DNA of 64,000 nt from a virus, in IMG/VR virus record IMGVR_UViG_3300037262_000003, positions 1 through 64,000 of that record. One strand, 5' to 3'. The notes under the pieces are model-generated. The model did no database searches. It had not been told where the DNA came from and saw only the letters and a program-made list of their open reading frames with translations. A program made the translations under genes and the position numbers. This document shows positions 1 through 64,000 of the stretch, one piece after another (the stretch's first letter is position 1; every line of letters begins with the position of its first letter).

Positions 1-33
1 GTGCTTGGTTCGTGCTTGGTTCGTGCTTGGTTT
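1..33. repeat. Triplicated 11-bp direct repeat
   Basis: Three tandem copies of gtgcttggttc, the last ending in t, stand at the left edge of the window. The array may continue to the left. It lies downstream of a leftward promoter (44-72), so it could be transcribed or be an iteron-like site; function unknown. Confidence 0.75.
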
Positions 34-43
34 GTTGATGTTC

Positions 44-72
44 AATCTACATCATGTGGAGCTGCCCGTCAA
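44..72 (-). promoter_or_regulatory. Sigma70-type promoter
   Basis: Leftward -35 TTGACG (67-72), 17-bp spacer, -10 TAGATT (44-49). It reads toward the 11-bp repeat and off the window. Confidence 0.6.
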
Positions 73-157
73 GTGGGTACACGCCCAATTTATGGTTTCC
101 GCAACTGCCGTCCCATGTCTGTGGTTAACGTGTACCCGCTTGGCGGGCCATGCCATC

Positions 158-186
158 AATCTACATGGCATGACCCACCGTGTCAA
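158..186 (-). promoter_or_regulatory. Sigma70-type promoter
   Basis: Leftward -35 TTGACA (181-186), 17-bp spacer, -10 TAGATT (158-163), starting exactly where the gene at 187-627 ends. Confidence 0.65.
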
Positions 187-627
187 CTACTCGTCGTCGT
201 CCTCGTCCAGCAGTTCGGAAATGCTCTCACCGTCCGCCAGCAGTTCAAGGGCTTCCGTGACTTCTTCGACAGTCCGCTCGGGAGCGAACAGCCAATCCCC
301 TTCCTCGCTGGTCAGCCCGAGCTGCTCCCGAGCGTACGTGTCCACGATGACCTCATGACCGTCGCCGAAGATCACCCGGTCATATCGCCAATCATACTTG
401 TCATTCTTGTGCAGAGTCAAGAGCACGACGTTGCCCGCGACACATGCCGTGGTACCGCAGACGTTCTTCTCGAACACCGTCCGGAGCTGCCCGGCAGTCT
501 GGATGTAGTCGTCCCCGTCATTGAAATACGGGCGGGAGAACCAGCTTCCCTGGTCGTAGTGCTTGCCCGCCTTGACGATCTCAAGAGTCGTGGCCGCTAC
601 CTTGCGCTTGCCAGTGATGCGACGCAT
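187..627 (-). CDS. Hypothetical protein with CGTTACVAG motif
   Basis: A 146-aa protein of unknown function. The start is supported by GGAGG six bases ahead of the ATG. A CGTTACVAG motif lies near residues 58-66, and similar C-x3-C-x-AG cores recur in small actinophage proteins as I remember them. The C-terminus is strongly acidic (residues ~125-146, rich in D/E). It has its own promoter at 660-688 and no overlap with its neighbour. No catalytic signature was seen. Confidence 0.8.
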   Translation of the reverse strand: MRRITGKRKVAATTLEIVKAGKHYDQGSWFSRPYFNDGDDYIQTAGQLRTVFEKNVCGTTACVAGNVVLLTLHKNDKYDWRYDRVIFGDGHEVIVDTYAREQLGLTSEEGDWLFAPERTVEEVTEALELLADGESISELLDEDDDE

Positions 628-659
628 GTTGCCTCCATGTTGTTTCTTGCGATGGCTTC

Positions 660-688
660 ACAGTATCAGGGCATACGCCCGATGTCAA
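660..688 (-). promoter_or_regulatory. Promoter for the 146-aa gene
   Basis: TTGACA (683-688), 17-bp spacer, TACTGT (660-665). The -35 box sits at the base of the hairpin 677-708, so the end of the upstream unit and the start of this one overlap physically. Confidence 0.7.
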
Positions 689-708
689 ATCCTCTCATGA
701 CATCGGGC
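677..708 (-). terminator. Hairpin between genes, overlapping a promoter
   Basis: An 11-bp perfect stem, GCCCGATGTCA / TGACATCGGGC, with a 10-nt loop. It follows the stop of the gene at 729-944 and lacks a clear U-tract. It shares bases with the -35 of the next promoter. Confidence 0.6.
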
Positions 709-728
709 ACGAGCCTCATACGATGATG

Positions 729-944
729 CTAGAACGGGGGTTCGTCGTCATAATCCCCGTTGTCGAAGCCGTAGCCGTCCTCCGGGTCGTCCTCGTCATC
801 GGGAACATCGTCCCACATGTCCCGGTCGTCGTCAACCGACTCCATGTCGATTTCATCGGCACCGAGCCAGTAGCCCTCACTGCCGACAGGGTAGAGATCG
901 TCGTAACGATCCTCATACGCTGCCTCAAGGTACTCGTCTTCCAC
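729..944 (-). CDS. Very acidic small protein
   Basis: 71 aa with over 40% Asp/Glu. It starts at a GTG, preceded by AGGAGG with a 4-nt gap. The composition fits a DNA-mimic or a protein-interaction tail, but no family was recognised. It is cotranscribed with the 45-aa gene upstream (960-1097), from which it is separated by only 15 nt. Confidence 0.7.
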   Translation of the reverse strand: MEDEYLEAAYEDRYDDLYPVGSEGYWLGADEIDMESVDDDRDMWDDVPDDEDDPEDGYGFDNGDYDDEPPF

Positions 945-959
945 AGTTCCTCCTATGAG

Positions 960-1097: not shown

Positions 1098-1103
1098 GAC
1101 ACC

Positions 1104-1132: not shown

Positions 1133-1141
1133 TTCGGTGAG

Positions 1142-1348: not shown

Positions 1349-1377
1349 CTTGCCTCCATTTAGTTCTTTTGTCAAAA

Positions 1378-2122: not shown

Positions 2123-2123
2123 G

Positions 2124-10519: not shown

Positions 10520-10638
10520 AGGGTAGGTCCACAGGGGGGAATGCACCCCGCACTAGTAATAGCGCACTATCCGACAAGAGACCGTCGCCTCATGGAATGC
10601 GTCTTCCTATTTCGTGCCCGCCTATGCTATGGACCAGT
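10520..10638 (-). other. Inter-tRNA segment with hairpins
   Basis: 119 nt with no gene. Short stems can form (CGAC/GTCG; ATAG/CTAT; GGGG/CCCC). It might be a spacer processed out of a common transcript or a decayed tRNA; no clear acceptor and T-arm pair was found. Confidence 0.35.
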
Positions 10639-10721
10639 GTTCGGGGCCGGACTTGAACCGGCATCTGACTTCTTGACCCTAAGGCACCGCGAAGTCGCTC
10701 TACTCGTTGAGCTACCCGATC
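10639..10721 (-). tRNA. tRNA-like gene with an 18-nt anticodon loop
   Basis: D arm GCTC-AACGAGTA-GAGC, variable loop CAGAT and T arm GCCGG-TTCAAGT-CCGGC are canonical; the acceptor GATCGGG / CCCGAAC has one A-A mismatch. The anticodon stem ACTTC / GAAGT (extendable to 6 bp) closes a loop of 18 nt rather than 7. The loop includes CTTAGGG, which by itself would be a good Leu(TAG) loop, but it is not stem-flanked. Identity cannot be assigned. Its own promoter is at 10730-10758. Confidence 0.6.
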
Positions 10722-25951: not shown

Positions 25952-27055
25952 TTACTCCTCCAATGACGCAGTTACCAGCGACCTCACAGCCTCGGGCTTG
26001 ATTGACCTCCACACTACAGGCCAGATGGACTGCCTGTCAAGTTGCTTGAACAGGTAGCCCTTGAGCGGAGACGGAACGTTCTTCACCGCGAGAGCGAAGT
26101 CCTTCCGTGTGAACTCAGGGTTAGCCGAGTCCAACTCGTACAGGATCTCGGTGTACGCCTCGTACGCAGTCAGTAGGATCTGGTTAGCGAGTGCGAAGAG
26201 GTTGTTGGCAACCTCATCGACCCACGGCCAGAACTCTTCCGGCAGAGGCTCCTTGATCTGGTCAGTCGTCTTGCCCTGAGCCAGAGCCTCCCACACAGAG
26301 CGGTCGGTCATGCCCGTGACAATCCTGTGGAGTGCTACGTAGTCGGCCTGCTTGAGCTTGACCCTCTGGCCTGTCGAGTGGAAGTACACCACGATACCCT
26401 CAGCGTTGTCACGTGGGGGAAGCGCAAGCGCGTCCGCAAACGAGTGAACGTCGAAGGTGCGAGTCGTTGGACCGTTCCAGTTCAGAAGCAGTCTTGACTC
26501 TGACGGAGTGTAGTTCAGGCCCGTCTCGATGTTGACACCACCCAGCAGAACCAGCTCATCCATGTCACCATAGTTGAGCACGATCCTGTTCTCCGGATAG
26601 ATAATTTCAAACAGGTAAGTGATGTCACGGTCCAGAGTGAGAGGGTACAGCAGCCCGTCATTCAGCAGACGAGTCGCGTGCTTGGCCTGGTCACTCACGA
26701 ACGAACCACGAGTCGCCACTGCCCACCCTCCACTAGGCAGGGGGTATAGGATGCCGAGTGAACCGTCCTGCTTGTCAGTCACACTCACACGGCCCGTAGG
26801 TGGAACCCACTCAGGACCGTGCTGCTCGTAGTTGAAGAACTTATCGAACGGGCGAGCAAGGATGTCGTAGTTCGTCATGTCATAGATCAGACCACGGCAC
26901 GCCATGGTCTCCTTGTTCCAGACAACATCCCAAGACGCCTTGTCGGTGTAGTTGAGGATGCCCAGAGGGTGAGACGGGTGGACCTGTAGGTGAATGTAGC
27001 CCTGGTCCATCATGATCTCAAGCCGAGTCGGACTCAGCAAATCGTGTAGCTTCAT
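25952..27055 (-). CDS. RNA ligase, T4 Rnl1-like
   Basis: 367 aa, close to T4 Rnl1 (374). Motif I TDKQDGSLG with nucleophile Lys95; EIIYPENRIVLNY (motif IIIa-like), EGIVVYF (motif IV), VKLKQADYVAL (motif V). The C-terminal domain (~250-367) corresponds to the tRNA-specific helical domain of Rnl1. It seals anticodon-loop breaks healed by Pnkp. Directly upstream of the Pnkp gene. Confidence 0.93.
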   Translation of the reverse strand: MKLHDLLSPTRLEIMMDQGYIHLQVHPSHPLGILNYTDKASWDVVWNKETMACRGLIYDMTNYDILARPFDKFFNYEQHGPEWVPPTGRVSVTDKQDGSLGILYPLPSGGWAVATRGSFVSDQAKHATRLLNDGLLYPLTLDRDITYLFEIIYPENRIVLNYGDMDELVLLGGVNIETGLNYTPSESRLLLNWNGPTTRTFDVHSFADALALPPRDNAEGIVVYFHSTGQRVKLKQADYVALHRIVTGMTDRSVWEALAQGKTTDQIKEPLPEEFWPWVDEVANNLFALANQILLTAYEAYTEILYELDSANPEFTRKDFALAVKNVPSPLKGYLFKQLDRQSIWPVVWRSIKPEAVRSLVTASLEE

Positions 27056-27990
27056 TACTTCCTCCCAGTTGTTCGTGCAGTGCGCTTCCGCACTACGGGA
27101 ACCTCCTTACGATCGTTGTAAGGCTTGCAGTTCTCGCAGGTACCAGGGAAGCGGCACTGAGGTTCTTCCCCTCGTTCCACAGCATACTTGATCGCAACGG
27201 CCTGGTCAACCAGTCTCATGCTGCGGTCTTCGCTGTATTCGATCGTGAAATTCTTGACCTGCTGGTTCCACTTGCACTCGTAGATGAACTCGGCGCTAGT
27301 GAAGGGCAGGCCCCTAGTCTGGCAGATCCAGAGGTAGATGTCAACCTGGTTGACATGCGTCTTGAACGGCCTGGTGATGCCCGACCACATCTTTTGCAGG
27401 TCACCATCTGCCGCGTCAAAGATATCCCAGGCTTCGATGCGAACGGAGCCCGTGCCCACTGACTTGATCTCAGCCAGGGTAGTCCACGCGGCACCGTCAG
27501 CGTGCCCGGCAAGGAGCGCCTCCTCCTCGGCGTTGAGCTGGACCTCCATGTACTCCCAGATGTGGTTGCCGTGCCCTAGATCGCATCCTTCCAGGACATC
27601 ATCTCCCCGATGACGCCATCCCTCGGGTTCTAGGCAGGCTCGCGCCACGTGGTCGCAGATCAGGCACTTCCAGTCACCCCAGAGAGGTGTGGCCGTACGG
27701 AATCTCTGCTGCCACTTGGCGTGAATCGCATGACCCTCATCGAATATGTTCTCAGTCGAGAAGTTGAAGTTCTTACCCTCAATCAGGATAGGACCCTCTG
27801 TGATGCGGAGATACACGGCCCGAGGACAGAACGTCTTCTGATGTGACAACTCAGACGGATGGATTATGTCCCAACGACGGTCTGACTCAACCATGTACTG
27901 CTTGAGCATGTCTTCCTTAACAGCAGGGAGCAGCACGCCCGGAGTCTTCTTGGCTCTAGTTCTCTCGGCTAGTCCAGATGATAGCTTCAC
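27055..27990 (-). CDS. Cas4-like RecB-family exonuclease
   Basis: 311 aa. GHADGAAW and LAEIKSVG give the PD-(D/E)XK motifs; Cys in FCPRAVY and a C-terminal CRFPGTCENCKPY form the four-Cys Fe-S site typical of Cas4/AddB-type nucleases. A further CLICD zinc-like pair lies between. Probably processes DNA ends during recombination-dependent replication. ATG overlap with the Rnl1 gene. Confidence 0.85.
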   Translation of the reverse strand: MKLSSGLAERTRAKKTPGVLLPAVKEDMLKQYMVESDRRWDIIHPSELSHQKTFCPRAVYLRITEGPILIEGKNFNFSTENIFDEGHAIHAKWQQRFRTATPLWGDWKCLICDHVARACLEPEGWRHRGDDVLEGCDLGHGNHIWEYMEVQLNAEEEALLAGHADGAAWTTLAEIKSVGTGSVRIEAWDIFDAADGDLQKMWSGITRPFKTHVNQVDIYLWICQTRGLPFTSAEFIYECKWNQQVKNFTIEYSEDRSMRLVDQAVAIKYAVERGEEPQCRFPGTCENCKPYNDRKEVPVVRKRTARTTGRK

Positions 27991-28205
27991 TTGATGCTCA
28001 AATCTATGTACTCCACCGGAGCGGAGACCGCGAACCGGATATCAAGGTTGTTCTTCTCGAAGACAACCGCGACATCCTGCACATCAGCAGGATCAATGCC
28101 ACCGTGGGCAGTCAGGCACATCTGGACGGCGTAAACAACCTCACCGTCGTTCAGCAACCCGTACGTGTGCTTACGTACCTCTGATGTGATCTCGTCAATC
28201 GTCAT
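27987..28205 (-). CDS. Hypothetical protein
   Basis: 72 aa, beginning MTIDEITSEVRKHTYG; small alpha/beta protein. ATGA overlaps at both ends. Function unknown. Confidence 0.68.
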   Translation of the reverse strand: MTIDEITSEVRKHTYGLLNDGEVVYAVQMCLTAHGGIDPADVQDVAVVFEKNNLDIRFAVSAPVEYIDLSIK

Positions 28206-28608
28206 CTTCTTCCTCCAACTCTCGCCTTGAGATCTTGCCCGCTAGAATGTGCTCCTGCAAGGCATCCTGTAGTTCATCATGGAACATCCAGACCCACTCT
28301 TCGCGTGGTCCGAGCAGTCTGGCATTCCAACGCCAGATCCTGCGCATTATCTTACGATCTTGCTCAGTCATGCCGCCCCAGACACCGAACTTCTCGTTGT
28401 TATACAGTGCGAATTCCAGGCACTGCTGTCGCAAAGGGCAGACGAAGCCGTCTATCTCACCGTTGCAGACATCTAGTGCAGGCTCGGGCTCAAGATCATC
28501 GAACCAAGGATCATAGACCTCTTCTTCACCTGGCTCACGATGAGGGGCAGAGCCTAGGCAGTTGGCTCTTTCCCAATCGGGCGCGTTACCTCTCAAATGC
28601 AATACCAT
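28195..28608 (-). CDS. whiB: WhiB-type Fe-S transcription regulator
   Basis: 137 aa. Four Cys (17, 48, 57, 63), the last two as CPLRQQC, then GVWGGMTEQDR, the WhiB turn, and a basic C-terminal helix. WhiB proteins bind a [4Fe-4S] cluster and sigma factor region 4; they are confined to Actinobacteria and their phages. The N-terminus overlaps an HNH nuclease gene with different base composition, so the start (ATG 28608, or the TTG near 28594) may have been altered by its insertion. Confidence 0.9.
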   Translation of the reverse strand: MVLHLRGNAPDWERANCLGSAPHREPGEEEVYDPWFDDLEPEPALDVCNGEIDGFVCPLRQQCLEFALYNNEKFGVWGGMTEQDRKIMRRIWRWNARLLGPREEWVWMFHDELQDALQEHILAGKISRRELEEEDDD

Positions 28609-30246: not shown

Positions 30247-31302
30247 TTAAGCCTCCATTGAGTCTAGTGATTCCATAGCTGTTGCGGTACTCAGAACGTC
30301 CCGCCTCAGTGCCTCTTGCAACAGACTATCTGAACGCAGCGCGGATGTCAAGCCTTCCTTGCCCATCCACTGTTGTCCTGCGTACCTGTAGTAGGCACCT
30401 GCCCGAGTGATAAGCCCGAGGGACATACCGATGTCCGTGTATTCCTTTGCCACATCGTAGTCCCCGCGCTTGAAGCCCATCGAAGGTGCGTCTGCGAAGT
30501 ACGCATCCACTGTGGCGATCTGCTGAGGCGCAGCACTCTTGTTCTTTATGGTCTTGAGCTTGATCGTCTGGCCGACCTTGACTTCTCCCTGGCCCGGACG
30601 CTTCTCGGAGATGAAGTCTCCGTCACGTGACAACTCCTCGCGAATGTAGAAGAAGTAGTCCTTGCCCTTACCACCGGGAGTGATCTTGGGGGTACCGAAG
30701 CGAGAAAAGCCGCCTATCTGATCGCGCCACTGATTGATGAAGATCCCAAAGAACGGACGATCACTACCGTCAATTGCTCTAGCACTCGCAGGGCCTACCT
30801 TTCGGATAAACTTGTTGAGTACCTTGGCACCTGACGCCACTACGAACTCGTCCATGCCCTTCTCTGCCTCATCTGAGGGTACGAGAGCTGGGTAACTGTC
30901 GAGTGTTACGTTGTCGAACTCCTGGCATTCTATGCCGTCGATCATGGTCTCCAGTGCGTGCTCCATGACCTGTGTGCGGACTAGAGTCACGCGGTTGAGA
31001 TCCACACCGAGAGCTTCTGCCTGGTCCTTGTCGAAGTGCTCTCCAGCCACCCAGAGTGCGGAAAAGTCTGGGTCCAGCCTCTGGTTCGCTGCAATGCACT
31101 TGAACGTCGTGAATGTCTTGCCCGCTGATGACGGGCCGATGACCTCAACGAAATGGTTGGCTGGATATCCCCCACCCAGGGCTGCGTCGAATGCGAATGA
31201 GCCCGAGGTATACAGTCGGGCAGTGACTAGCTCTGAGGCTGGCACCACGACCTGTGAGCCCAGCTTCTTGTTCATTCGCGTTGCAAAGTCTACAGTAGAC
31301 AT
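30247..31302 (-). CDS. recA: RecA-like recombinase
   Basis: 351 aa. Walker A GPSSAGKT (56-63), Walker B region VTLDSYPAL, and the RecA-type FGIFINQWRDQIG segment. Carries out strand exchange, probably for recombination-dependent replication. Its AGGAGG lies within a hairpin (31308-31339) that only forms in read-through transcripts from the tRNAs; its own promoter starts inside the hairpin loop. Confidence 0.9.
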   Translation of the reverse strand: MSTVDFATRMNKKLGSQVVVPASELVTARLYTSGSFAFDAALGGGYPANHFVEVIGPSSAGKTFTTFKCIAANQRLDPDFSALWVAGEHFDKDQAEALGVDLNRVTLVRTQVMEHALETMIDGIECQEFDNVTLDSYPALVPSDEAEKGMDEFVVASGAKVLNKFIRKVGPASARAIDGSDRPFFGIFINQWRDQIGGFSRFGTPKITPGGKGKDYFFYIREELSRDGDFISEKRPGQGEVKVGQTIKLKTIKNKSAAPQQIATVDAYFADAPSMGFKRGDYDVAKEYTDIGMSLGLITRAGAYYRYAGQQWMGKEGLTSALRSDSLLQEALRRDVLSTATAMESLDSMEA

Positions 31303-32587: not shown

Positions 32588-34714
32588 TTAACCTCCAATA
32601 AGACGAAGGGGCAGGAACCGAAGTCCCTGCCCCTTAGTGTACATGACTAACTTGGCATCTGACCAGCGATCACACACATGGAGATCGATCTTCAAGGGCA
32701 AAGCAACGTAGTCCTGAATCCCTTCGCCCGTCATAGCCCACTCTAGGAGGGCCTGAGCTTCGGGAACATCAGCCTCGGGGCACTCGATCACGATTTCATC
32801 GTGGACCGTAAGGTTGATCGTCCAGTACTCCTTCTTCTTACTATAGAACCTCACCATTGCCATCTTTGTCAAGTCAGCAGACGATCCCTGGATCTTAGCG
32901 TTGAAGATCTGACGCTCAGCCCTGTTCCGAATCTTCTGATCACCAGACATAAGCTCTGGCAGACGACGCATCCTTCCCAGGATGGTTGACGTGTGAGGTG
33001 GCTTGCCCGTCTTCCTCATTGAATGACGTCGGGCCTCACGGAGAACCTTTTCCTTCTCGGCCTCGATCTCCGGGGTGTTCCTGTCGTACCTGTCCTTGAA
33101 CTCCTGAGCCTCATCCATAGACACGGACATCATAGAAGCTAGCTTCTTGATCCACGCGCCGTAGACTGTGGCGAAGTTGATGGACTTGCCGAAACGCTGA
33201 CGGTGATTCTTGGCTTCCTTGTCCCCGGCATCCACTAGAGCTTGCAGTTCTTCCGGTACCAGCCCGAGAGCCATGGCTGCGGTCAATGTGTGAGGGTCGA
33301 TTCCGTTGAGGAACCCGTCCCACATTGCACCATAGCCTATGAAGTGGGCCAGCAGGACCAGCTCGATCTGCCCGTAGTCAGCCACGATCAGCTTGTTACC
33401 TGGTCGGGCAACGAACAGACCACGGATCATCGTAGCCAGGTCATTAGGATCACCGGTCGGACGGGGGATGTTCTGGAGGTTCGGATTTCTACAGCTCATT
33501 CTACCAGTTACTGTGCCGTACTGCACGAAGTCAGGGTAGACGATGCCATCGAACACACGGCATGGCTTTTCCTTGTCGTCTGGGTCACCGAGGTACCCCA
33601 GGACGTACGTGCTGTAGACCTTGTTCGTCTCCCTGTACTCCAAGAGCTTGTCAATGACAGGGTTCTCACCTCTGAAACCTTCTAGGCTCTCGTCATCCGT
33701 TGAGTAGAACGAATGGTCCGGAACGATCTTTACCTTGGCCTTGCGAGCAGCCTCAACCTTCTTCCTCCCAGTCGTGGTCATCTTCCAGGGCCTGAGTCCC
33801 AGGCCGCCGTCCTTCTCGGACTTGAACAGGAGACCCTGGATCTGCTGCGAGCTGCGGAGGTTGACCTTACGTCCAGCCTCATGATAGAACGCCCGCTCTC
33901 TCTGATCAACAAGAACAGACAGTTCCCCGCGTAGCTCCTCCAGCCTCACCGTGTCCATGGCAGTCCCAGTCGTGCGCATGTCAGCCAGGACAGTAGTCAG
34001 CCTGACCTCCCACTCCCAGACTTCCTCAAGTCCGTCAGCGATAAGCAACGGCAGACATCTCTTGTACTCCTGCCATCCGTACACAAGGTCGTAGTGAAGA
34101 TACTGCGCGACCTGGTTCATCCTGTAACGCTCGACGGTCTTGCCAATGCCCGAGTCGTCATAGATAAACCCGTACTTGTTCTTGGTCACAGGCTTGAGAC
34201 CGTACTGCATCTGGTTCTCGTCTGTCAGATGGTGCATCTCTATGGTGCAGACCAGACGACCCTCAGGAACAAGGGGCTTGCCCGAGAACGGAGACGGGCG
34301 GTACTTGGCGACTGACGCACCGTCGAACGTGGCACCGTGAGCGATCTGTGTGATCGCAGAGTCAGCGAACAAAGGATTGATCAGATCAAAGACTTGCTGC
34401 TGATTCATATGCGCCGGGGGCTGTGAGTAGATAGGAACTTTGTAGTTCCTGATCTTACCGTCCTGGCAGAGGCGAGGCTCGATGCCCTCACCGATGATCT
34501 CGTTGCCGATCGGGTGACCCATTGGGATCTTGATGACACGCCCGTGGGTTGCCATTCCCATCCATATAACAGAGTTCCTGGCGGGGACACCGCGATCGTC
34601 TAGGCCCGGCTCAGACGGGATAGACTCCACGTCAAAGAAAAAGATTCCTTGTTCAGCAATATATTCCACCTCCTCCTTCAACCTCTCGGGTGTCAAGATG
34701 ATACTTGAATCCAT
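32588..34714 (-). CDS. polA: DNA polymerase I (family A) with 3'-5' exonuclease
   Basis: 708 aa. Exonuclease FFDVESIPS (~26-34); polymerase motif A VADYGQIELVLLAH, motif B RQRFGKSINFATVYGA, motif C VHDEIVIECPE. Lacks the N-terminal 5'-3' exonuclease domain, as is usual for phages. Replicates the phage genome. Promoter-hairpin cassette at 34734-34771 lies after its leader, reading in the same direction. Confidence 0.97.
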   Translation of the reverse strand: MDSSIILTPERLKEEVEYIAEQGIFFFDVESIPSEPGLDDRGVPARNSVIWMGMATHGRVIKIPMGHPIGNEIIGEGIEPRLCQDGKIRNYKVPIYSQPPAHMNQQQVFDLINPLFADSAITQIAHGATFDGASVAKYRPSPFSGKPLVPEGRLVCTIEMHHLTDENQMQYGLKPVTKNKYGFIYDDSGIGKTVERYRMNQVAQYLHYDLVYGWQEYKRCLPLLIADGLEEVWEWEVRLTTVLADMRTTGTAMDTVRLEELRGELSVLVDQRERAFYHEAGRKVNLRSSQQIQGLLFKSEKDGGLGLRPWKMTTTGRKKVEAARKAKVKIVPDHSFYSTDDESLEGFRGENPVIDKLLEYRETNKVYSTYVLGYLGDPDDKEKPCRVFDGIVYPDFVQYGTVTGRMSCRNPNLQNIPRPTGDPNDLATMIRGLFVARPGNKLIVADYGQIELVLLAHFIGYGAMWDGFLNGIDPHTLTAAMALGLVPEELQALVDAGDKEAKNHRQRFGKSINFATVYGAWIKKLASMMSVSMDEAQEFKDRYDRNTPEIEAEKEKVLREARRHSMRKTGKPPHTSTILGRMRRLPELMSGDQKIRNRAERQIFNAKIQGSSADLTKMAMVRFYSKKKEYWTINLTVHDEIVIECPEADVPEAQALLEWAMTGEGIQDYVALPLKIDLHVCDRWSDAKLVMYTKGQGLRFLPLRLIGG

Positions 34715-35942: not shown

Positions 35943-36361
35943 GACTTCACCGGCACGATGGCAAAGGTCTCGACCTCTGTGATGAGGGAATCGAGCTGTG
36001 CGTCAGTGATCTTGCCCTGCTGGTTGAGCGCGTAGAGCTTGTCCTCATCGAACTGTCGGACTTCCTTGACAGGGAAGACCTCATCGTAAAGATTCAGTTC
36101 CTTGGACAGGGATTCAGTGGCGTCAAGGTCAATGCTTGACGAGATCCTGCGCTGAGCGCAGATCGCCTTGTAGGTCTTGCCTTCTACTGTGAGTTCTTCC
36201 TCGAAGTCAAGCCAGCGATGCCCGTTCTCGTCCTCCCGCCCGTCCTCCATGAGGATCTCACGCAGGAGATTCCTGTAACTATCACGACTCTTACCCGTGC
36301 GTTCCTGTTCAGCACGGTTGAACAAGAAACCGTGAATCATCTGGTTCACCGCGCTGTTCAT
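35939..36361 (-). CDS. Hypothetical protein
   Basis: 140 aa, beginning MNSAVNQMIHGFLFN; helical. Coupled to helicase and MerR-like genes by ATGA overlaps. No domain recognised; a replication accessory is a positional inference. Confidence 0.7.
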   Translation of the reverse strand: MNSAVNQMIHGFLFNRAEQERTGKSRDSYRNLLREILMEDGREDENGHRWLDFEEELTVEGKTYKAICAQRRISSSIDLDATESLSKELNLYDEVFPVKEVRQFDEDKLYALNQQGKITDAQLDSLITEVETFAIVPVKS

Positions 36362-38019
36362 GCCACGTCTCCATTCTCCGAATAGTTACTAGCATACTCC
36401 CAGGCGTCGATGACTTCTTGCGCGTGCTTAATGAGGCTCTTGATGTCCTTGACCAGTGAGCCCGTGATTGTCTTACCGTCAATGGCAGCCAGGGCAATGT
36501 CGTCCTTGAACTCACGGACGGCTGCCTTACGTTCCTCGATCGTGCCTCTCATGAGGACGTTCACTACATTAACCGAGTCGAAGATAGATGAGGCACGGAT
36601 GTGCCGTCCGTTAACCTGCGTGCCAAGTCCGCCCGACCATGCCATGTCGATGTTGATGAGCCAGTTAGCGCACGGCAGGTCAGTACCATAGGCTCCAGCG
36701 TGACTGGAGACGAACACTCTCGTGTCTTCATCGTCTAGGAAGGCGGCAATGGCTGCTTCCTTTGCAGAACTCGTCATCTCTCCGTGGTATTCGACGCACT
36801 CCCAACCGAGATCCTCAAGGCCCTGCTTCGTGACGTTGACCATCATGCGGTAACGGGAGAAGAGAATGACCTTGCTTGACGGATCATTGTGAAGTATGTT
36901 ATTGACCTTGCGCAGAACGTAGTCCAGCTTCGGGGTATCCGTTGGGATACGTGCTCCCTCAGTGACCAGCTTGTGGGCGTACTTCGAGCCCGACTCACCA
37001 TCAGTCTCGTCGTACTTCAACGCCGACAGGTGAATCATCGGAGGGTAGTCAAGCAACTGCTCCATGACAGTGTGGATCGACATGACCTCGCCCATTCCGC
37101 CCTTGGCGCTGGTCTGTCCGCCAGCTCCGTAGTGAGCGCTCAGCGAGAAGCCCCCTGGATGGCTCGGAGAGCGATCGTAGGCGACTAGGAGGTCCCTGGC
37201 CATGTCAACGTATGCCTCTAGCATCTGAGGCTCTGTATCGACCTCCCAGGTATGGTAGACGACCTCTGGCATGAAGGGCGCTACGTCAGGGTCAACCCTG
37301 GACTTCCTGTACATGGCGGTGGACAGCTTCTCCCAGAGGATGTCAAGATTCCTGTAGCCCATGACCCCGCCATTGGAGTCTCTTCTGATGTAGGACTTGT
37401 CGAAGAGGTCAAAGCGCCCGAGGATGTTGCGGTCCACGAACTGCATGATCGAGTAGACATCCTCTGGGATGTTCTCAAGCGGTGTGGCAGTAAGAGCCAG
37501 ACGGAACGGGAAGTATCCCAGGCATTCCTTGATGGCCTGTGACCTCTGCGAAGAGGGGGACTTGATCAGGGAAGCCTCGTCAAGAACAGCGATGGTAGGG
37601 GATAGTTGATAAATATACTCATCGAATTCCGCCACAACCGTGTCGTATCCGACAATGACGTACTCAGGTCGGTTGAGTACTGCACGGGCATACTGATCGC
37701 GGCGCTTAGCAGGGTCTCCGTCGATGATGGTACAGTATTCTTCCTCCGGAACTGTTATGTGCTTGCGCTTGATTTGGAGCTGGCGTGTCGGGATGTCAGT
37801 GACGGAGGCTATGGCCTTGGCCCACTGGTACTTGAGGTTAGCAGGGACCACGAGCAGACAGCACTTGGTCATGCGCCGCTCAAGCAGATCCTCGCAGATG
37901 GCTATAGCCGTGGCAGTCTTCCCAAGCCCTGTGTCCAAGGCGAGCAGAAGACTGCCACGGTCCATGAACATGTCAAACGCCTCTTCCTGGTAGGGAAAGA
38001 GGTCAATTGTCATGGCCAT
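36358..38019 (-). CDS. SNF2-type DNA helicase/translocase
   Basis: 553 aa. Walker A LALDTGLGKTATA, motif II LDEASL, motif III LALTATPLEN, then helicase C: KVILFSRYRMMVNVT, VFVSSHAGAYGTDL. SF2 translocase, DNA remodelling or replication restart. RBS GGAG precedes the ATG. Confidence 0.93.
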   Translation of the reverse strand: MAMTIDLFPYQEEAFDMFMDRGSLLLALDTGLGKTATAIAICEDLLERRMTKCCLLVVPANLKYQWAKAIASVTDIPTRQLQIKRKHITVPEEEYCTIIDGDPAKRRDQYARAVLNRPEYVIVGYDTVVAEFDEYIYQLSPTIAVLDEASLIKSPSSQRSQAIKECLGYFPFRLALTATPLENIPEDVYSIMQFVDRNILGRFDLFDKSYIRRDSNGGVMGYRNLDILWEKLSTAMYRKSRVDPDVAPFMPEVVYHTWEVDTEPQMLEAYVDMARDLLVAYDRSPSHPGGFSLSAHYGAGGQTSAKGGMGEVMSIHTVMEQLLDYPPMIHLSALKYDETDGESGSKYAHKLVTEGARIPTDTPKLDYVLRKVNNILHNDPSSKVILFSRYRMMVNVTKQGLEDLGWECVEYHGEMTSSAKEAAIAAFLDDEDTRVFVSSHAGAYGTDLPCANWLINIDMAWSGGLGTQVNGRHIRASSIFDSVNVVNVLMRGTIEERKAAVREFKDDIALAAIDGKTITGSLVKDIKSLIKHAQEVIDAWEYASNYSENGDVA

Positions 38020-38053: not shown

Positions 38054-39040
38054 CTACACCCAATCGATACCTTCGAAGTAGGTGAACGCTGCCGGTGTGG
38101 CAGTGAATATCCCGTTGTGAATCTCCTCAGGAGTCAGGTCGTTAGGATCACGACCATCAGGGGTGTGAATGTACGCACCATTATCCTTGCGTACCGTGCC
38201 GTAGTCGAACACGAACGTGCTCGTCCTGGCGTAGGGGTTGTTGAGAATAAAACGCTGCATGGCCTTGTGCCCGGCAGCGTCGTTGTCCAGCATGAGGATC
38301 ACGTGGTCAGCCACGGGCCAGAGCAGATCGTTGACCTGGTAGTCCGTGAAGCTAGAACCACAGGTACTCACCACTCTCTTCCACCCTGCATCGTAGACAA
38401 GCCCCGCCTTGACTGGGTTCTCTAGGACAACGCACAACCCTACGGTCCCCGTTGACTTTAGATTCCTGTAGCCGAAGACAGTGGTCGCCTTCTTGATCTT
38501 GGGAGGGTAGTTGATCACCAACTGCCCATCTTCCCCCGTCCCCTTCTCCTGCCATCCTATGAGCCTGTCTGTCCAGGGGTCTCTGAGGACAAAGACCCAG
38601 CGTTCCTTCTCTTCATTCCACAGAATCTCAAGAGCCTCGCAGGACTCAGCCGAGATCCTTCTCTCTGCCAATCTCTCCGCAGGCGGTGACACGAACGGCC
38701 AGAGATCCATCTCGCGGACAGCAGCCTCGCGTGCTACCTCAGGCTCATCCACTATTCCGATGCGTACCTTCTGCGTCTTGATCCACGCTACAGCCTCGCC
38801 CGACCGCACTCCCTTGGTGATCTGCACGAGCCACTGGAACGAACCACCGAATCCACAAGAGAAACAGTGGTGCTTACCGGTGTTCATATTGATCGACCAC
38901 GACGGAGAGCCGTCATAGTGCTGCGGGCTAGGGCACAGTGCCGTGGCCTCGTCGCCACGGATCTTGAAATCTATATTCAGATCCCACAGCGCCCGTTCCA
39001 TATCAGCGGGCACCAGATCAGGCAGTCTAGTAATCGTCAT
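38054..39040 (-). CDS. DNA primase
   Basis: 328 aa. Zinc finger Cys36, His41, Cys59, Cys62 (CHC2 type), then a Toprim domain (VVLENPVKAG, VILMLDNDAAG). Makes primers for lagging-strand synthesis. The third of three in-frame ATGs was chosen (six bases after AGGAGG). The gene overlaps the DnaB-like gene. Confidence 0.93.
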   Translation of the reverse strand: MTITRLPDLVPADMERALWDLNIDFKIRGDEATALCPSPQHYDGSPSWSINMNTGKHHCFSCGFGGSFQWLVQITKGVRSGEAVAWIKTQKVRIGIVDEPEVAREAAVREMDLWPFVSPPAERLAERRISAESCEALEILWNEEKERWVFVLRDPWTDRLIGWQEKGTGEDGQLVINYPPKIKKATTVFGYRNLKSTGTVGLCVVLENPVKAGLVYDAGWKRVVSTCGSSFTDYQVNDLLWPVADHVILMLDNDAAGHKAMQRFILNNPYARTSTFVFDYGTVRKDNGAYIHTPDGRDPNDLTPEEIHNGIFTATPAAFTYFEGIDWV

Positions 39041-40343
39041 CATCATCCTCCTTCGCCTCATACGCCTGGAACTCGAATACATCCCAGTCCCATTCACCAC
39101 GGATGGTCGGAAGATAGCCCCGACGTGCCGCAGTGTTCTTGATCGTGATCTCCCTGTCGTCTCCCTTGTCGATGGTGAACACCATATCGGAAGCCATGCG
39201 GAGTCCTGTGCCGCCCATCATCGCAGTGTCATCAAATCCGCCGCCCGACTTGCCGAGCTGCTTCTCACGAGCCTGGTGGGTCACCCAGACAGGGAATCGA
39301 TGTCTCATGGCCAGGTTCTTGAGATCCCTTGCAAGGTTGTCGTGAGCCTCCCAGCTTGAACCAGGAGTGCGGCCCGTGGCCTCGTCAGTCAGGAAGTAAA
39401 ACCCGTCGATGTAAACGATGTCGGGCTCGAACTTCTCGATCTCGTACTCAAGGTGAGACATGGTGAACTTCGAGATGGGCTGGACGATGGAGAATGCCTC
39501 TGAACCGCTGGACATCTCCCTCTCCCAGTACTCGCGGACCTTCTGCTCGTCAGACTTGGGCAGACGGAATTCCCTGGTGCTGGCGATATAAGGCGCAGGG
39601 TTAACCCCGGCTCCATAGCAGACCAGCATGTCACGAACGTCTTCCTCCGGTATCTCAGTCGAGATGAATATGACACGGCGAGGGTCGAGCTGCTCCTGCC
39701 CCGAGAAGGATGTCCTTCCGAACCAGGCGTGGTAGGCAGACTGCAAGAGGAACGTGGTCTTGCCCGCCTTGGCACGGCCTACCAGCGTGATGAGCTGACC
39801 GGGCTGCGAGCCAGGGAAGTGCTTGTCCAGCTCATCGATGCCGAAGCCAGGGCCAGGCTCGCGCACCATAGCGATACGTTCTTCGAGCTGGTAGTCCGAT
39901 CGGTCCCAGGTCACCGAGATGGCAGCCTGCTCCTGCTGGTACAGAACCTTGCGTGCCGTCGCCATCATGATCTCAGCGGCAGTGACAGGATCTCCTGCCT
40001 CCACGTAGCGCTGGGCCTCAGTCGTGCCGACCTGAGTCTCGAACATGGAGACTGCCTGCTTGGCCAGGTCCACAAGCTCACGGTCATCGAACGAGGGCTC
40101 CACCAGCCTGTAACTCTCGGGCGGGTACGAGCGCCTGAACAACGTGATGTCCATGACCTTCGTGTACTTCTCGTAGTGCCTGAGGATGGTGTTCCAGGCG
40201 TCAATGTCCTGGCCCGTGAACACTGCCGCATACGCAGGGCTCATCTGGTTGGACATGAACTCGCCGTCCAGTCCCGCCTTAAGGTAAGGCTGGATGTTCT
40301 TGGTCTGTAGCACACGGGCGATAATCTCACGCCCGAGGATCAT
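39027..40343 (-). CDS. Replicative DNA helicase, DnaB-like
   Basis: 438 aa from the ATG 40343. Walker A GRAKAGKTT (189-197), Walker B IVYIDGFYFL, then WVTHQAR (sensor) and an Asp run at the C-terminus (DDDDD). Unwinds the fork ahead of the polymerase. GGAGG is 15 bases from this ATG but 6 bases from an ATC at 40350-40352, so the true start may be non-standard. Confidence 0.92.
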   Translation of the reverse strand: MILGREIIARVLQTKNIQPYLKAGLDGEFMSNQMSPAYAAVFTGQDIDAWNTILRHYEKYTKVMDITLFRRSYPPESYRLVEPSFDDRELVDLAKQAVSMFETQVGTTEAQRYVEAGDPVTAAEIMMATARKVLYQQEQAAISVTWDRSDYQLEERIAMVREPGPGFGIDELDKHFPGSQPGQLITLVGRAKAGKTTFLLQSAYHAWFGRTSFSGQEQLDPRRVIFISTEIPEEDVRDMLVCYGAGVNPAPYIASTREFRLPKSDEQKVREYWEREMSSGSEAFSIVQPISKFTMSHLEYEIEKFEPDIVYIDGFYFLTDEATGRTPGSSWEAHDNLARDLKNLAMRHRFPVWVTHQAREKQLGKSGGGFDDTAMMGGTGLRMASDMVFTIDKGDDREITIKNTAARRGYLPTIRGEWDWDVFEFQAYEAKEDDDDDY

Positions 40344-40439: not shown

Positions 40440-40937
40440 CTACTGAATCCCCTTCCTCTTACGTCTGTCCCGGTACACTCTCCACAGTCCCTTGGTGCAA
40501 TCGTCCAGGGTAACCGGGTCGTAGAACATTCCGAGAACGTCCTCCACGCCATTGCAGTACCCCCAGGGAGCGTTCTTCTTGAAGTACCTCACGACATTGC
40601 GCCCGAAGTCAGCCAGAGATAGCTGCCTGCCGTCACCATCGCGGAACCTCTCGGGGTAAGCCGCATAACTGATCCTGATAGCCGAACGATCCAGGGCGTC
40701 CTGTCCCCTCTTGAACAGCCAGGCAGCGTTCTTGCCTGTGATGATGCCCTCATCGTAGAAGAACTTCTCCATCTCCTGAGCGATAGCCCAGGCCACATCG
40801 TCAGGATCACCCAGTCGGTCAGGCGTAGCGTTCTCACCTCTCACGAACCTAGGACGATCTTCATCAGCCCGACGTTCCCTGTCTCTAAGAGACCCTGGTC
40901 TCGGGGCTGGCTTGTTCCTGTTGTAGACCTTTTCCAT
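40440..40937 (-). CDS. Hypothetical replication-region protein
   Basis: 165 aa, beginning MEKVYNRNKPAPRPG, Arg-rich at both ends, core WAIAQEMEKFFYDEG. AGGAGG four bases upstream. First gene of the replication unit, downstream of promoters at 40958 and 41071. Function unknown. Confidence 0.75.
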   Translation of the reverse strand: MEKVYNRNKPAPRPGSLRDRERRADEDRPRFVRGENATPDRLGDPDDVAWAIAQEMEKFFYDEGIITGKNAAWLFKRGQDALDRSAIRISYAAYPERFRDGDGRQLSLADFGRNVVRYFKKNAPWGYCNGVEDVLGMFYDPVTLDDCTKGLWRVYRDRRKRKGIQ

Positions 40938-40957
40938 GTCGCCTCCTTCTGGTCATA

Positions 40958-40986
40958 GTTCTACAGCACCAGAGTCGGGATGTCAA
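40958..40986 (-). promoter_or_regulatory. Promoter of the leftward replication unit
   Basis: TTGACA (40981-40986), 17-bp spacer, TAGAAC (40958-40963). Confidence 0.6.
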
Positions 40987-41070
40987 CTTCGGAGTCAGCT
41001 CGGCCATAAGTATTTTGGTAGGGAACTACATGAGTATTAGAACCAAAGTCAAAGTCAAAACCTAATGACG

Positions 41071-41099
41071 ATTGTAGCGACGGGTCTAGGAGTTGTCAA
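41071..41099 (-). promoter_or_regulatory. Strong distal promoter of the leftward unit
   Basis: TTGACA (41094-41099), 17-bp spacer, TACAAT (41071-41076), nearly consensus, about 110 bp upstream of the first. Confidence 0.72.
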
Positions 41100-41122
41100 G
41101 CACTCTCGGATCTTGGGACTGC

Positions 41123-41152
41123 TTGACTCCCAGGGGTACCTGGCCCTAGACT
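41123..41152 (+). promoter_or_regulatory. Rightward promoter of the AT-hook gene
   Basis: TTGACT (41123-41128), 18-bp spacer, TAGACT (41147-41152). The spacer holds CCAGG-GGTA-CCTGG, a possible operator. Confidence 0.6.
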
Positions 41153-41174
41153 GTTGGGACAAGGAGGTACAAAC

Positions 41175-42089
41175 ATGACTGAGAACGAGGTGCAAGAGGC
41201 ACCGATGACGACGTACGCCCTGTGGGGCACGGGGGACATCACGGCTGAGAACGCCAAGGCCCTGCTGGAGGAGTACATCCCCGACAATGTGGGCACAGTC
41301 TTCAGGCCCGATCGTATCACGAGGGATCACAAGGGGCTCAGGACTGCCCTGGACTGGTTCGAGAGCCCGGACTTCCTGGGTGACGGCGGGGCTCTGCCCA
41401 GCACGGACCTGATTCAGTCGCTAGTGGATGAGCGCGACGGCGAGTTCCACGATGAGGTCTATCTCTTGGCGCTGTGGCCCAGCGAGCCCTCCCATGAGGA
41501 CTTCGACTTCATCGAGAGCGTGCAGCAGGCTGGCATCACAGTGATCGCCCTGTCACATGCGTTCGTTGAGCTGGACCTGAGCTTGTACAGCAGGCCCGAG
41601 GCGACCAAGGAAGAGAAGGCTGAGGCCAGGGCTGCCGCCATCGCAGAGAAGAAGCCGAGGGGTCGCCCGAGGAAGCTTTCTGACGCTGCCCCTGAGACCA
41701 AGGAGTTCATCAGCCCGAGTGTGACCGAGGCAGCTTCTACTCTGGTCACGGCTACAGATCCACTAGTCTGCGACGGAACGCTGCTGCCCGAGGTTCAGGT
41801 CAACGATGACCTTACCGCACAGATGTTCGCTGGCATCAAGAGGTACATCGATATGAACATCGAGGCCGGTATCAAGGCTGCCATGCAGTCGCTGGGGGAG
41901 GCTGTCCGTCCTGTTCTGCATCACGACGAGCACCCTCCGTTCGAGCCTCCGTACGTTGGCATCGACACCAAGCCTTACTTCTTCAACAAGACCACGAACG
42001 TGTACCGCGAGGGCACAGGCAAGCCGCGACGTGGTGAGCTTCTGGTTAACATGACTGACGAAGAAGCTCAGGAGAAGGGCGCGCTGTGA
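41175..42089 (+). CDS. AT-hook protein
   Basis: 304 aa from the ATG at 41175 (GGAGG upstream). AT-hook KKPRGRPRKL (159-168) between an N-terminal alpha/beta domain and a C-terminal domain with DDLTAQMFAGIKRY. AT-hooks bind the minor groove; the protein may act as nucleoid-like or regulatory factor at the divergent control region. One of four rightward genes in the window. Confidence 0.8.
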   Translation: MTENEVQEAPMTTYALWGTGDITAENAKALLEEYIPDNVGTVFRPDRITRDHKGLRTALDWFESPDFLGDGGALPSTDLIQSLVDERDGEFHDEVYLLALWPSEPSHEDFDFIESVQQAGITVIALSHAFVELDLSLYSRPEATKEEKAEARAAAIAEKKPRGRPRKLSDAAPETKEFISPSVTEAASTLVTATDPLVCDGTLLPEVQVNDDLTAQMFAGIKRYIDMNIEAGIKAAMQSLGEAVRPVLHHDEHPPFEPPYVGIDTKPYFFNKTTNVYREGTGKPRRGELLVNMTDEEAQEKGAL

Positions 42090-56026: not shown

Positions 56027-56938
56027 GTGCCCATCTTCGCAAGCCAGTTTGGCTATGCCAACGCCTATGACCCGATTGGACTTGATACGGGCACGCCATC
56101 AGTCGGTGCCACTCTAGGCAAGTCAGCCAAGGCTTCACCTACTGAGCCCGAAAAGGTAGGTGCCAGTGTAGGAGCATCAGCCGCAGCGTCAGCAGCAGCG
56201 GAAGCGGCAGCGTCCAACGCTGCCAACCAGCAGCTATCCAGCTCTAACGGCAACGCAGGATCGACATCACTGGCTAACCAGGGCACACTGAACAAGCTGA
56301 CCCGTATGGAGTCAATGACTGCCGGGGCCACTAACGCTCCCCTCTCTGACCCGCAGACGAACACTTACAGGTCAGATAGCGACATGCTTGACACACCGAG
56401 TGGCCCGACACCAAAGGAAGCCACTGTTAGCGCCCCGGCAAAGTCGTCTCACACTCTTGCTGCATCGTCAGGTGGCGGGGGATTCTTCCACAGCATTGCC
56501 AACGGATTCGACACTGCCCGTCATTCTGTGTCAGCGGGAACTGACTGGCTCATGAACACCAACGGGACTAACCCCAGTAGCCCGAACAACATGGGATCTG
56601 CCAAGACATACGCACCTCGCGGCACTACTGACTCAGGTGTGACAGAACCTTCCAATGTGTGGAACCCATCTCAGTACACCAACACTCCAAGCCCGAGCGG
56701 CAATGGAAGTGTGATGGCTGGCGTGTCCAGCCCTAGTGCTATCGCTGCTGAGTCAAGCCCGCGTGCCATCGGCATGAACGGTGCCTACAATGAGCAGCAG
56801 TTCGGCCGTCTACAGCAGGCACGTAACGCAGCGCAGTCCCAGGTCGATGACAATGACGCTCCTGGCTGGATGCAGGACATCGAGAATTTCGCCAACAGCC
56901 CGCAGGGCAAGCTTGTAGGAGCAGACGACGACGGCTAA
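56027..56938 (+). CDS. Rightward Ser/Gly/Ala-rich protein within the tail module
   Basis: 303 aa from the GTG at 56027-56029 (GGAG six bases upstream). Disordered composition with short conserved-looking termini (MPIFASQFGYANAYDP; GWMQDIENFANSPQG). It is transcribed against the tail genes; its stop at 56938 abuts the stop of the next gene at 56939. Divergent AT-rich promoter region 55975-56020. Resembles the proteins at 20.3-22.7 kb in composition. Possible internal virion or scaffolding protein. Confidence 0.75.
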   Translation: MPIFASQFGYANAYDPIGLDTGTPSVGATLGKSAKASPTEPEKVGASVGASAAASAAAEAAASNAANQQLSSSNGNAGSTSLANQGTLNKLTRMESMTAGATNAPLSDPQTNTYRSDSDMLDTPSGPTPKEATVSAPAKSSHTLAASSGGGGFFHSIANGFDTARHSVSAGTDWLMNTNGTNPSSPNNMGSAKTYAPRGTTDSGVTEPSNVWNPSQYTNTPSPSGNGSVMAGVSSPSAIAAESSPRAIGMNGAYNEQQFGRLQQARNAAQSQVDDNDAPGWMQDIENFANSPQGKLVGADDDG

Positions 56939-61788: not shown

Positions 61789-61797
61789 CTAGTCTCC

Positions 61798-62547
61798 TTA
61801 ACCGACGTTGACCTGGCTGACAAGTCCCGCGCTCAAGACCCCTGTATTGAGCGCGATCCCAGCCGGGCTATCAAGATCGATATCGCCCAGATCGGAGTAT
61901 ACGGAGAGGTCAAGGTTTATCATGCTTACAGGAATAAGCGTACCACCCCAAGCCACAGAACTCCGAATGTCCTCTAGTAGCTCTGTGTAAAGACGCACAC
62001 GGTAGACCACCTTGAACAGACGCTTGCCGTCTTCATCGAGGCCATAGCCTTCTTCTGGTCCACCCAGGAGACGCATTGTTCTTAGTGTCCCGTTCTGTGG
62101 TACCCACATGGCACCCATCTTCGCAGGAAGACGCCAGAGTGTGGCAAGCTCAGCAATGAGAGGCTGGATGTGCTCGTTCCAGAAACGCCCGTACAGCGTG
62201 ACCTGGTAGTCAAGGTTGTACGGAGTTGGCGGGAACGGTGTGTAATACGGCGAATCCCGAGGGTCTAGCGCATGAGGATCAAACGCCGTGCCGAAAGCGA
62301 AAGGCGTCAGTCCTTCTGGCGTGTAAGGGATCTGCACCATCGCGCCCGACTGCATTCTCTCCTGGTCAGGATAGATACCAGCGTGCTCGATGATGATGAC
62401 AGGGTATGTGAGGTTAGCCAGCTCGTCCTGAGGCAGACGGAATCGCACGCCAACAGGACGACCTCCGACAGGAGCGTTCGTGTCTGTTACCGTGAGTCCC
62501 TGTAGACGCCACTTCATAACGGCGTCCTCATCGCGCAGCCATGGCAT
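61798..62547 (-). CDS. Neck/tail-completion protein
   Basis: 249 aa, beginning MPWLRDEDAVMKWRLQGL. Beta/alpha, YGRFWNEHIQPLIAELATL in the middle. Located upstream of the sheath, where tail terminator proteins lie. Confidence 0.75.
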   Translation of the reverse strand: MPWLRDEDAVMKWRLQGLTVTDTNAPVGGRPVGVRFRLPQDELANLTYPVIIIEHAGIYPDQERMQSGAMVQIPYTPEGLTPFAFGTAFDPHALDPRDSPYYTPFPPTPYNLDYQVTLYGRFWNEHIQPLIAELATLWRLPAKMGAMWVPQNGTLRTMRLLGGPEEGYGLDEDGKRLFKVVYRVRLYTELLEDIRSSVAWGGTLIPVSMINLDLSVYSDLGDIDLDSPAGIALNTGVLSAGLVSQVNVG

Positions 62548-63092
62548 TACTGTGTACCCCCACCAATTGTGCTAGGCGGCCCGTTGGTAGTGTAAGGCCC
62601 GCCCGGAGCCCAGTCAGCGAACTGCGAGTCCCAGACCAGCTCGTCGGGCTTGACCTGTGTCGTGGAGATGGCAACGATGATGTCACGACGCTGCATCTGA
62701 CCTCTGACGGAGATCTGGCGTACTCGGAATACCTTCCTGTCGTACACCACGCGATCCTTCATGTAGTTGCCTGTCATGATGTCAGCGTAATCCATACCGG
62801 CCTGTAGCATCTTGCTGAACGAGACGATGAGGGCGGCGTCGTCGTTGTAGTAGAATCCGTTCTCAGACTCTTCGTTGGCACCTTCCACGTGCTCGATATG
62901 CATACACTGTAGACGCTGTGACGGCAGGTACATAAGCCCGTTGCCCGTAGGCTCGTCGTAAACGTCATCCATCTGAGAGTTGGCCTCATCGAAACGGAAG
63001 TAGTCCGCCCAGTCACCATCAACGGCCTGCCATCCGTCCATGGCACCGAGGATCTTGTCAGTCTCATAAATAGTCCGGATTAAATCTTCCAC
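62547..63092 (-). CDS. Head-tail connector-region protein
   Basis: 181 aa. GTG start; acidic N-terminus, beta core (ALIVSFSKML; RKVFRVRQISVRG). Sits between capsid-side and neck genes. Confidence 0.72.
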   Translation of the reverse strand: MEDLIRTIYETDKILGAMDGWQAVDGDWADYFRFDEANSQMDDVYDEPTGNGLMYLPSQRLQCMHIEHVEGANEESENGFYYNDDAALIVSFSKMLQAGMDYADIMTGNYMKDRVVYDRKVFRVRQISVRGQMQRRDIIVAISTTQVKPDELVWDSQFADWAPGGPYTTNGPPSTIGGGTQ

Positions 63093-63110
63093 GCTTGAAG
63101 TCCATGCGGC

Positions 63111-63344
63111 TCACCGGCTAACCACCTCCTTCAGCACCCACTCCGCGAACAAGCGTAGCTGTTCGGGCGATGCATCTCGTTTCATGCTGTTAGCCAGGTG
63201 GCTAATGACTTGGACATTACCTGGGACATACCCTAGGGCAGGGACGATGCGGTCAAGGCTTGGAGCATTGTGCCCTGGACCTCTTCCAGTACCAGGATAC
63301 AGGGAAATCCCCAAGACAGGGCAAACATCTGGGATGTAGAACAC
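63111..63344 (-). CDS. Short HNH-like protein (fragment?)
   Basis: 77 aa. VCPVLGISLYPG...PSLDRIVPALGYVPGN and VQVISHLANSMKRDAS match the C-terminal half of the gene at 28586-29080 but lack its N-terminal Cys knuckle. A remnant or a minimal version. Confidence 0.65.
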   Translation of the reverse strand: MFYIPDVCPVLGISLYPGTGRGPGHNAPSLDRIVPALGYVPGNVQVISHLANSMKRDASPEQLRLFAEWVLKEVVSR

Positions 63345-63346
63345 TA

Positions 63347-63691
63347 CTACTCCCAGTCCTCGTGATAGACGCGTGCCGGAATTATCCCACCCATCTTCTG
63401 GGCGAAACGCTCTCCGTCATCTGTGCGCTCTGGTGCGTGCATGAGCTGCCCGCCAGTTGCGGCCTGGGCGCGCTGGTACAGAGCTGTTCCTATTCCCCTG
63501 CCACGATCTGCCTTGTCGTAGACCTTTACCTCACCGATCTGCGGACGAGACTGGCCTGAGTCGTAGTTAGACAGATAGCTCAGGTGCGCCACGGGCTCGT
63601 CATTCCGCATGGCGAATACGTGGCCCGAGTTGGTGTCCGGGTCGTGGTGCTCCTCGAACTGCACACTGTTGAGGTGGTCTGTCGCTGACAT
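63347..63691 (-). CDS. GNAT acetyltransferase
   Basis: 114 aa. GEVKVYDKADRGRGIGTALYQRA is the GNAT motif A (R-G-x-G-I-G-x-A). Ends with RTDDGERFAQKMGG. Substrate unknown; similar to the gene at 20615. Confidence 0.8.
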   Translation of the reverse strand: MSATDHLNSVQFEEHHDPDTNSGHVFAMRNDEPVAHLSYLSNYDSGQSRPQIGEVKVYDKADRGRGIGTALYQRAQAATGGQLMHAPERTDDGERFAQKMGGIIPARVYHEDWE

Positions 63692-64000
63692 TACTTCATC
63701 CTCGTCTTGTAACCCTTGTCGCCACGCTCTCCAAGGGAATCTCTTGCCTTCTGTTCATCAGGATTGCGGGCTGTTGACCACGAGTCGTGGACTGCATTAG
63801 GCTGTGCCGTAGGATTGTCACCCACGTCTACGGCAGGCAAGGGCATTCCTAGCCTTGCGGCTACTGCCGCCCGATGATGCCCGCCACCCTGGATCTGGTA
63901 GTTACCAGCACGGTCGTTGAACTTGACACCCACAGGAGTCTGAAAACCATTCTCCTTGACGTGCGACTCCAACTTGGACATGTACTCGGGCTCGCGGTTG
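63691..64000 (-). CDS. ParB/Srx-like nuclease, partial
   Basis: The frame is open past the right edge, so its N-terminus lies outside. IQGGGHHRAAVAARLGMPLPAVDV is a ParB-like GxHR motif. ATG 63981 may be internal. Coupled to the GNAT gene. Confidence 0.7.
   Translation of the reverse strand, partial: NREPEYMSKLESHVKENGFQTPVGVKFNDRAGNYQIQGGGHHRAAVAARLGMPLPAVDVGDNPTAQPNAVHDSWSTARNPDEQKARDSLGERGDKGYKTRMK

Follow-up and report, generated by a model that had tools for sequence, protein, structure and literature searches.

Why does one phage genome carry a single five-base word, GCCCG, in such numbers and mostly on one strand, and what might read it? The question was raised by a 64,000-nucleotide stretch of DNA (here called the window), which comprises positions 1-64,000 of a 110,053-bp virus record of an actinobacterial phage (IMGVR_UViG_3300037262_000003). 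An earlier note on this DNA had counted GCCCG and CGGGC by eye in seven blocks and arrived at about 67:17 on the + strand. A recount of these blocks gave 65:18, and the case became stronger over the full window, in which GCCCG and CGGGC occur 252 and 99 times, respectively, on the + strand. The corresponding ratio in the whole record is 428:213. Among all 5-mers, GCCCG shows the largest strand asymmetry in the window.

The genes were called with a simple codon-model finder written for this analysis, and no curated annotation was used. About 92% of the predicted coding bases are leftward. The closest described relatives are Streptomyces phages of ~112-116 kb, for example BRock, with a DNA polymerase ~40% identical. 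The record contains contractile-tail genes (sheath, baseplate, and tape measure) and also encodes DNA polymerase, primase, DnaB-like helicase, UvsX, RNA repair genes, a TGT/DpdA-like protein (phrog_887), and a WhiB-type regulator; given this regulator, an actinobacterial host is expected. An array of 23 tRNA genes was found at 95,593-100,316 of the record, tRNA-Tyr and tRNA-His at 31.4-31.6 kb of the window, and an Rfam tRNA match at window positions 10,638-10,721. The phage additionally encodes tRNA nucleotidyltransferase, polynucleotide kinase, and RNA ligases. The features to which the text refers are as follows:

27055..27990, - strand: Cas4/RecB-like exonuclease (phrog_2506; Cas4, 6e-9)
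28195..28608, - strand: WhiB-type regulator (PF02467, 1.2e-11), overlooked by the simple gene finder
30247..31302, - strand: UvsX/RecA-like recombinase (phrog_97)
32588..34714, - strand: DNA polymerase I-like replicative polymerase, used as the query for relatives
36358..38019, - strand: SNF2-type helicase/translocase (phrog_62; SNF2-rel_dom, 4.6e-20)
38054..39046, - strand: DnaG-type primase with CHC2 zinc ribbon and Toprim domain (phrog_47; Zn_ribbon_DnaG, 5.8e-7; Toprim_2, 5.7e-7)
39027..40343, - strand: DnaB-like replicative helicase (phrog_19; DnaB_C)
41175..42089, + strand: second rightward gene, unassigned product (homologue 35% identical in the relative G001)
56027..56938, + strand: rightward gene, unassigned product (no match in Pfam and PADLOC)
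87.3-89.0 kb of the record: terminase-like gene, identified by synteny and 53-60% identity to homologues alone

The bias is not a matter of gene direction or codon use. On the coding strand of the leftward genes of the window, the CGGGC:GCCCG ratio is 213:80, and within-gene synonymous shuffles give about 72:57. The codon-shuffled controls, which the earlier note had proposed as a way to refute its claim that codon use is not the cause, thus did not reproduce the ratio. The same note had reported that the bias persists in a rightward gene, and this was confirmed: on the genome + strand, GCCCG:CGGGC is 7:1 in the gene at 56,027-56,938, 6:0 in that at 41,175-42,089, and 37:16 in all rightward genes pooled (binomial p = 0.0055). 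All 45 genes with a length of ≥600 bp exceed their own synonymous shuffles for GCCCG, and the majority orientation is in 2.3-3.4 fold excess in each of the three codon phases. When all 5-mers were compared with synonymous-codon shuffles, GCCCG ranked first (372 observed against ~142 expected, about 2.6-fold, z ~19), and the second-ranked word among non-overlapping 5-mers reached z ~8. Codon use was rejected as the cause by within-gene, across-gene, and codon-order shuffles. Codon-pair junction effects were rejected as well, as a null that keeps the junction dinucleotides gives 127 CGGGC in leftward genes versus 335 observed. Intergenic DNA holds 56 GCCCG and 43 CGGGC, against 21 and 17 under a first-order Markov model. 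The most enriched intergenic 5-mer in the record is GTCAA (64 observed, 20 expected), which reads TTGAC, a -35 promoter-like sequence, on the other strand.

Many palindromic hexamers are strongly avoided in the leftward genes, with observed/expected counts of 0/46 for CAGCTG, 0/43 for CTGCAG, 2/44 for GCCGGC, 3/39 for GTCGAC, and 0/33 for GGCGCC. This avoidance suggests a host rich in restriction enzymes; the relative G001 barely avoids the same hexamers. GCCCG as a by-product of palindrome avoidance was rejected, since only ~130 CGGGC are expected under an MCMC null in which 4- and 6-bp palindromes were approximately matched, rare hexamers being somewhat under-constrained.

The excess belongs to the exact word. 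No one-mismatch neighbour of GCCCG shows a comparable excess, the highest being GCCAG with a z of 2.1, and the sole flanking preference beyond the 5-mer is a mild one for A in the position after it. The contexts tGCCCGa and aGCCCGa described earlier agree with the present counts, with A following GCCCG at 37% of the sites (25% expected) and T preceding it at 33%. Serine-glycine (TCG-GGC) and threonine-glycine (ACG-GGC), which can carry CGGGC, are among the most enriched dipeptides, and the pressure for the word therefore seems to extend to the protein sequence. Because codon use cannot account for the excess, GCCCG is probably a working signal in the phage genome. No relevant mention of GCCCG as a motif turned up in a search of the literature. 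Polar over-represented words as such are already known (Chi, primase sites, orienting sequences), but this word, its exactness, and its distribution over two members appear to be undescribed.

The second member is G001, a 34-kb IMG/VR contig and the nearest relative, whose polymerase is 63% identical. In this contig GCCCG is the top 5-mer (155 observed against ~83 expected) and has the same polarity. Approximately 55 further relatives, each 10 kb or longer and BRock among them, showed no comparable excess of GCCCG, and none was seen in the Streptomyces phage relatives. Searches for further close relatives with strict polymerase peptides and with clade-specific helicase and primase sequences yielded only G001. 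Conservation of individual sites between the two carriers was considered and rejected, as 20% of the GCCCG sites are retained and the median for 5-mers is 17%. Retention is no better than for other words; it is thus the density of GCCCG that is kept while the positions of the sites turn over, as one would expect if the signal is dispersed.

Other words stand out in the relatives. AGTTG/CAACT is in strong excess on both strands in L041/G007, L072/G017, and others (62 CAACT observed and 11 expected in G017); plausibly, this excess is a synonymous escape from the avoided CAGCTG and a phenomenon distinct from GCCCG. In G007 (IMGVR_UViG_3300012942_000038), a polar excess is seen for CTAGAAG and its neighbours (CTAGAA 47:10), which almost always occupy a single codon phase and do not lie at gene ends.

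Actinobacterial chromosomes were sampled in 20-kb stretches beside dnaA from 80 genomes. No GCCCG excess was found in these samples in either orientation (largest z 2.8), and the sampled lineages may omit the true host. GCCCG is therefore unlikely to be a common actinobacterial motif, and the same samples demonstrate that the synonymous-shuffle null is well calibrated. When 396 actinobacterial genomes were compared with the phage DNA in search of the host, short matches alone were obtained, mostly to conserved genes, tRNA, or low-complexity sequence. As the word is absent from the 80 samples and from the distant relatives, its reader is probably encoded by the phage.

GCCCG is also evenly spaced. 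The coefficient of variation (cv) of its spacing is 0.849, the lowest, i.e., the most even, of 131 k-mers of similar abundance; in G001 it is 0.825, within the lowest 3%. The minority orientation, CGGGC on the + strand, is fairly evenly spaced too; for most of the first 49 kb its counts are close to those expected, and much of the 49-110 kb stretch has an excess of it. The polarity that the earlier note had ascribed to the whole window holds there. Beyond ~76 kb, outside the window, it is weaker, with both orientations in excess: the plus share falls from 72% before 75.9 kb to 55% after it (none of 500 permutations matched the observed likelihood gain). The polarity switch sought across the record thus took the form of a drop and not of a full switch; an FtsK/KOPS-like sequence is characterized by a polarity reversal at a defined site, and the decrease to 55% at 75.9 kb occurs without reversal. 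Cumulative GC skew has its minimum at 40,969 and its maximum at 86,677, positions that lie in intergenic gaps or at their edges (40845-41174 of the window and 86675-87313 of the record). A GC-skew or replication switch at 41 kb was rejected, because the overall skew turns there, whereas the four-fold-site skew and the motif polarity do not. Since the four-fold-site skew has no switch at either 40,969 or 86,677, the turns of the overall skew may be due to protein composition and not to replication.

Our preferred reading, which we put forward tentatively, is that GCCCG/CGGGC is a recognition sequence of the replisome, most likely the priming site of the phage's own primase acting with the DnaB-like helicase. 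The DnaG-type primase (38,054-39,046) and the helicase (39,027-40,343) would start Okazaki-fragment primers at a GCCCG/CGGGC template site, and selection would hold at least one site per few hundred bases on the strand that serves mainly as the lagging-strand template. Such selection could yield the exact word, the excess, the polarity, and the even spacing with no need for conserved individual sites. We infer here the reading of the word by a protein, the primase as its reader, and the direction of the forks, for which there are two versions. In the first, 5'-GCCCG on the + strand would be read by rightward forks, against the genes, and the primer would begin with GTP. In the second, 5'-CGGGC on the coding strand would be read by leftward forks, with the genes.

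Known primase sites were run as controls. T7 primase recognizes a pentanucleotide (PMC12839067). The spacing comparison covered three T7-group phages and one Chi phage. On the lagging-template strand, the T7-group sites (G/T)GGTC are evenly spaced, with a spacing variation in the lowest 3% (T7), 11% (T3), and 0.3% (gh-1) of matched controls; the other strand shows no such evenness (45%, 34%, and 9%, respectively). GCCCG resembles these sites in being a short word with a codon-corrected excess, for them mainly of TGGTC, and in an evenness that is apparent for T7 and gh-1 and weaker for T3; in addition, the genome encodes a zinc-ribbon primase and a replicative helicase, as a phage priming site would require. 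It differs from them in its sequence, in that their codon-corrected excess is milder (primase pentamers in T7, T3, and gh-1 reach about 0.9-1.9 fold), and in that T7 has no net polarity (118:117). The size of its excess is nearer to that of Chi in P1, which counts against priming. So do the relatives with homologous primases, in which no comparable word was found, and the fact that no replication origin of the phage was located.

The words recognized by known primases are short and rich in either C or G. A second comparison is offered by the DnaG primases of Aquifex aeolicus and Clostridium difficile, which prefer to initiate at 5'-CCC; this trinucleotide is strand-biased in the C. difficile chromosome, and the helicase alters the specificity of the primase (PMC5204125). 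The C-rich sequence, the strand bias, and the possible part of a helicase are shared with GCCCG, but the site is a trinucleotide and not a pentamer, and the residue before the third zinc cysteine of the primase is His in this phage and in G001 instead of the Lys linked to CCC priming. This residue was rejected as a marker of motif carriers, as His is also present in three relatives without the motif. The primase is 58% identical to that of G001. The DnaB-like helicase is 70% identical in G001 and ~25% identical in relatives without the motif. This strong divergence of DnaB in the two carriers speaks for the priming reading, but it is only moderately out of line with the 34% found among the other relatives. 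Because the zinc-ribbon residue fails to separate the carriers and the helicase divergence is only suggestive, our confidence in the priming reading stays a little short of even.

The earlier note had named packaging, Chi-like, primase, and host-restriction-linked motifs as candidates; a primase site and a Chi-like word both survive. In the Chi-like reading, a helicase-nuclease, either of the host (AdnAB, AddAB, or RecBCD type) or encoded by the phage, halts degradation at the word and recombination begins there, so that dense polar sites protect the phage and aid recombination, as P1 carries E. coli Chi. We regard this main rival of the priming reading as unlikely, though worth serious consideration. 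The pipeline recovered Chi (GCTGGTGG) as the top 8-mer of P1, strongly over-represented (26 observed against 2.9 expected, and 16 against 2.2 on the other strand) and polar (31:19 in the whole genome), and GCCCG shares both the strong codon-corrected excess and the moderate polarity. Chi of Bacillus subtilis, AGCGG, is likewise a pentamer (PMC4824097). The excess of the minority orientation grows toward the right part of the genome, as if sites faced the nearer end, and the Cas4/RecB-like exonuclease (27055..27990) is a possible phage-encoded reader. However, Chi is the word of the host itself, and neither the sampled actinobacterial chromosomes nor the Streptomyces phage relatives are enriched in GCCCG. 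The spacing of Chi in P1 is also irregular (cv 1.24 and 1.45, from small numbers), whereas that of GCCCG is even. The narrower proposal that GCCCG/CGGGC is a Chi-like word of a helicase-nuclease from an unsampled actinobacterial host, or of a phage-encoded enzyme, is improbable in our estimate. A priming site is favoured over a host Chi because the excess, the polarity, the even spacing, and the absence from hosts fit priming better.

It is rather unlikely that GCCCG is some other polar signal read by a phage protein, for example one that orients or loads a translocase, the recombination proteins, or the packaging motor. The SNF2-type helicase, as a possible translocase reader, and the Cas4-like exonuclease would be available for it, and the change of polarity at 75.9 kb is ~11 kb from the terminase-like gene. 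On the other hand, homologues of both proteins (~34-43% identity) occur in relatives without the word, and we know of no phage packaging motor that uses a dense dispersed word.

A context-dependent bias of mutation or repair, for instance by an enzyme resembling very-short-patch repair, could make the word with no selection; it would affect coding and non-coding DNA equally and could be strand-asymmetric. We consider it very unlikely. No single source word one mismatch away explains the gain. Counts of the C-to-T neighbours are close to those expected, and most of the neighbours share in the deficit. Moreover, the enrichment of the Ser-Gly and Thr-Gly dipeptides suggests pressure at the level of protein, and a homogeneous mutation process would not produce even spacing. 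Finally, a link to modification or restriction, in which the phage modifies the word or keeps one orientation to evade a Type III enzyme, is highly improbable: it could draw on the TGT/DpdA-like protein and on the strand-polar EcoP15I sites of T7, whose coding sequences hold them in a single orientation (CAGCAG none, CTGCTG present), but escape predicts rarity or one orientation, GCCCG is over-represented in both, restriction sites are avoided in the genome, and homologues of the TGT/DpdA-like protein are found in relatives without the word.

The occurrence of one exact five-base word in every sizeable gene, on a preferred strand, provides a testable candidate for the target of a replication or recombination enzyme. 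If GCCCG were a Chi-like word, it would be a concrete sequence to try with actinobacterial helicase-nucleases and the first candidate sequence for asking whether AdnAB-type enzymes respond to Chi. If it is a priming site, as we tentatively prefer, even spacing combined with a codon-corrected excess would offer a way to infer the specificity of a primase from sequence, an approach supported in two of the three T7-group phages.
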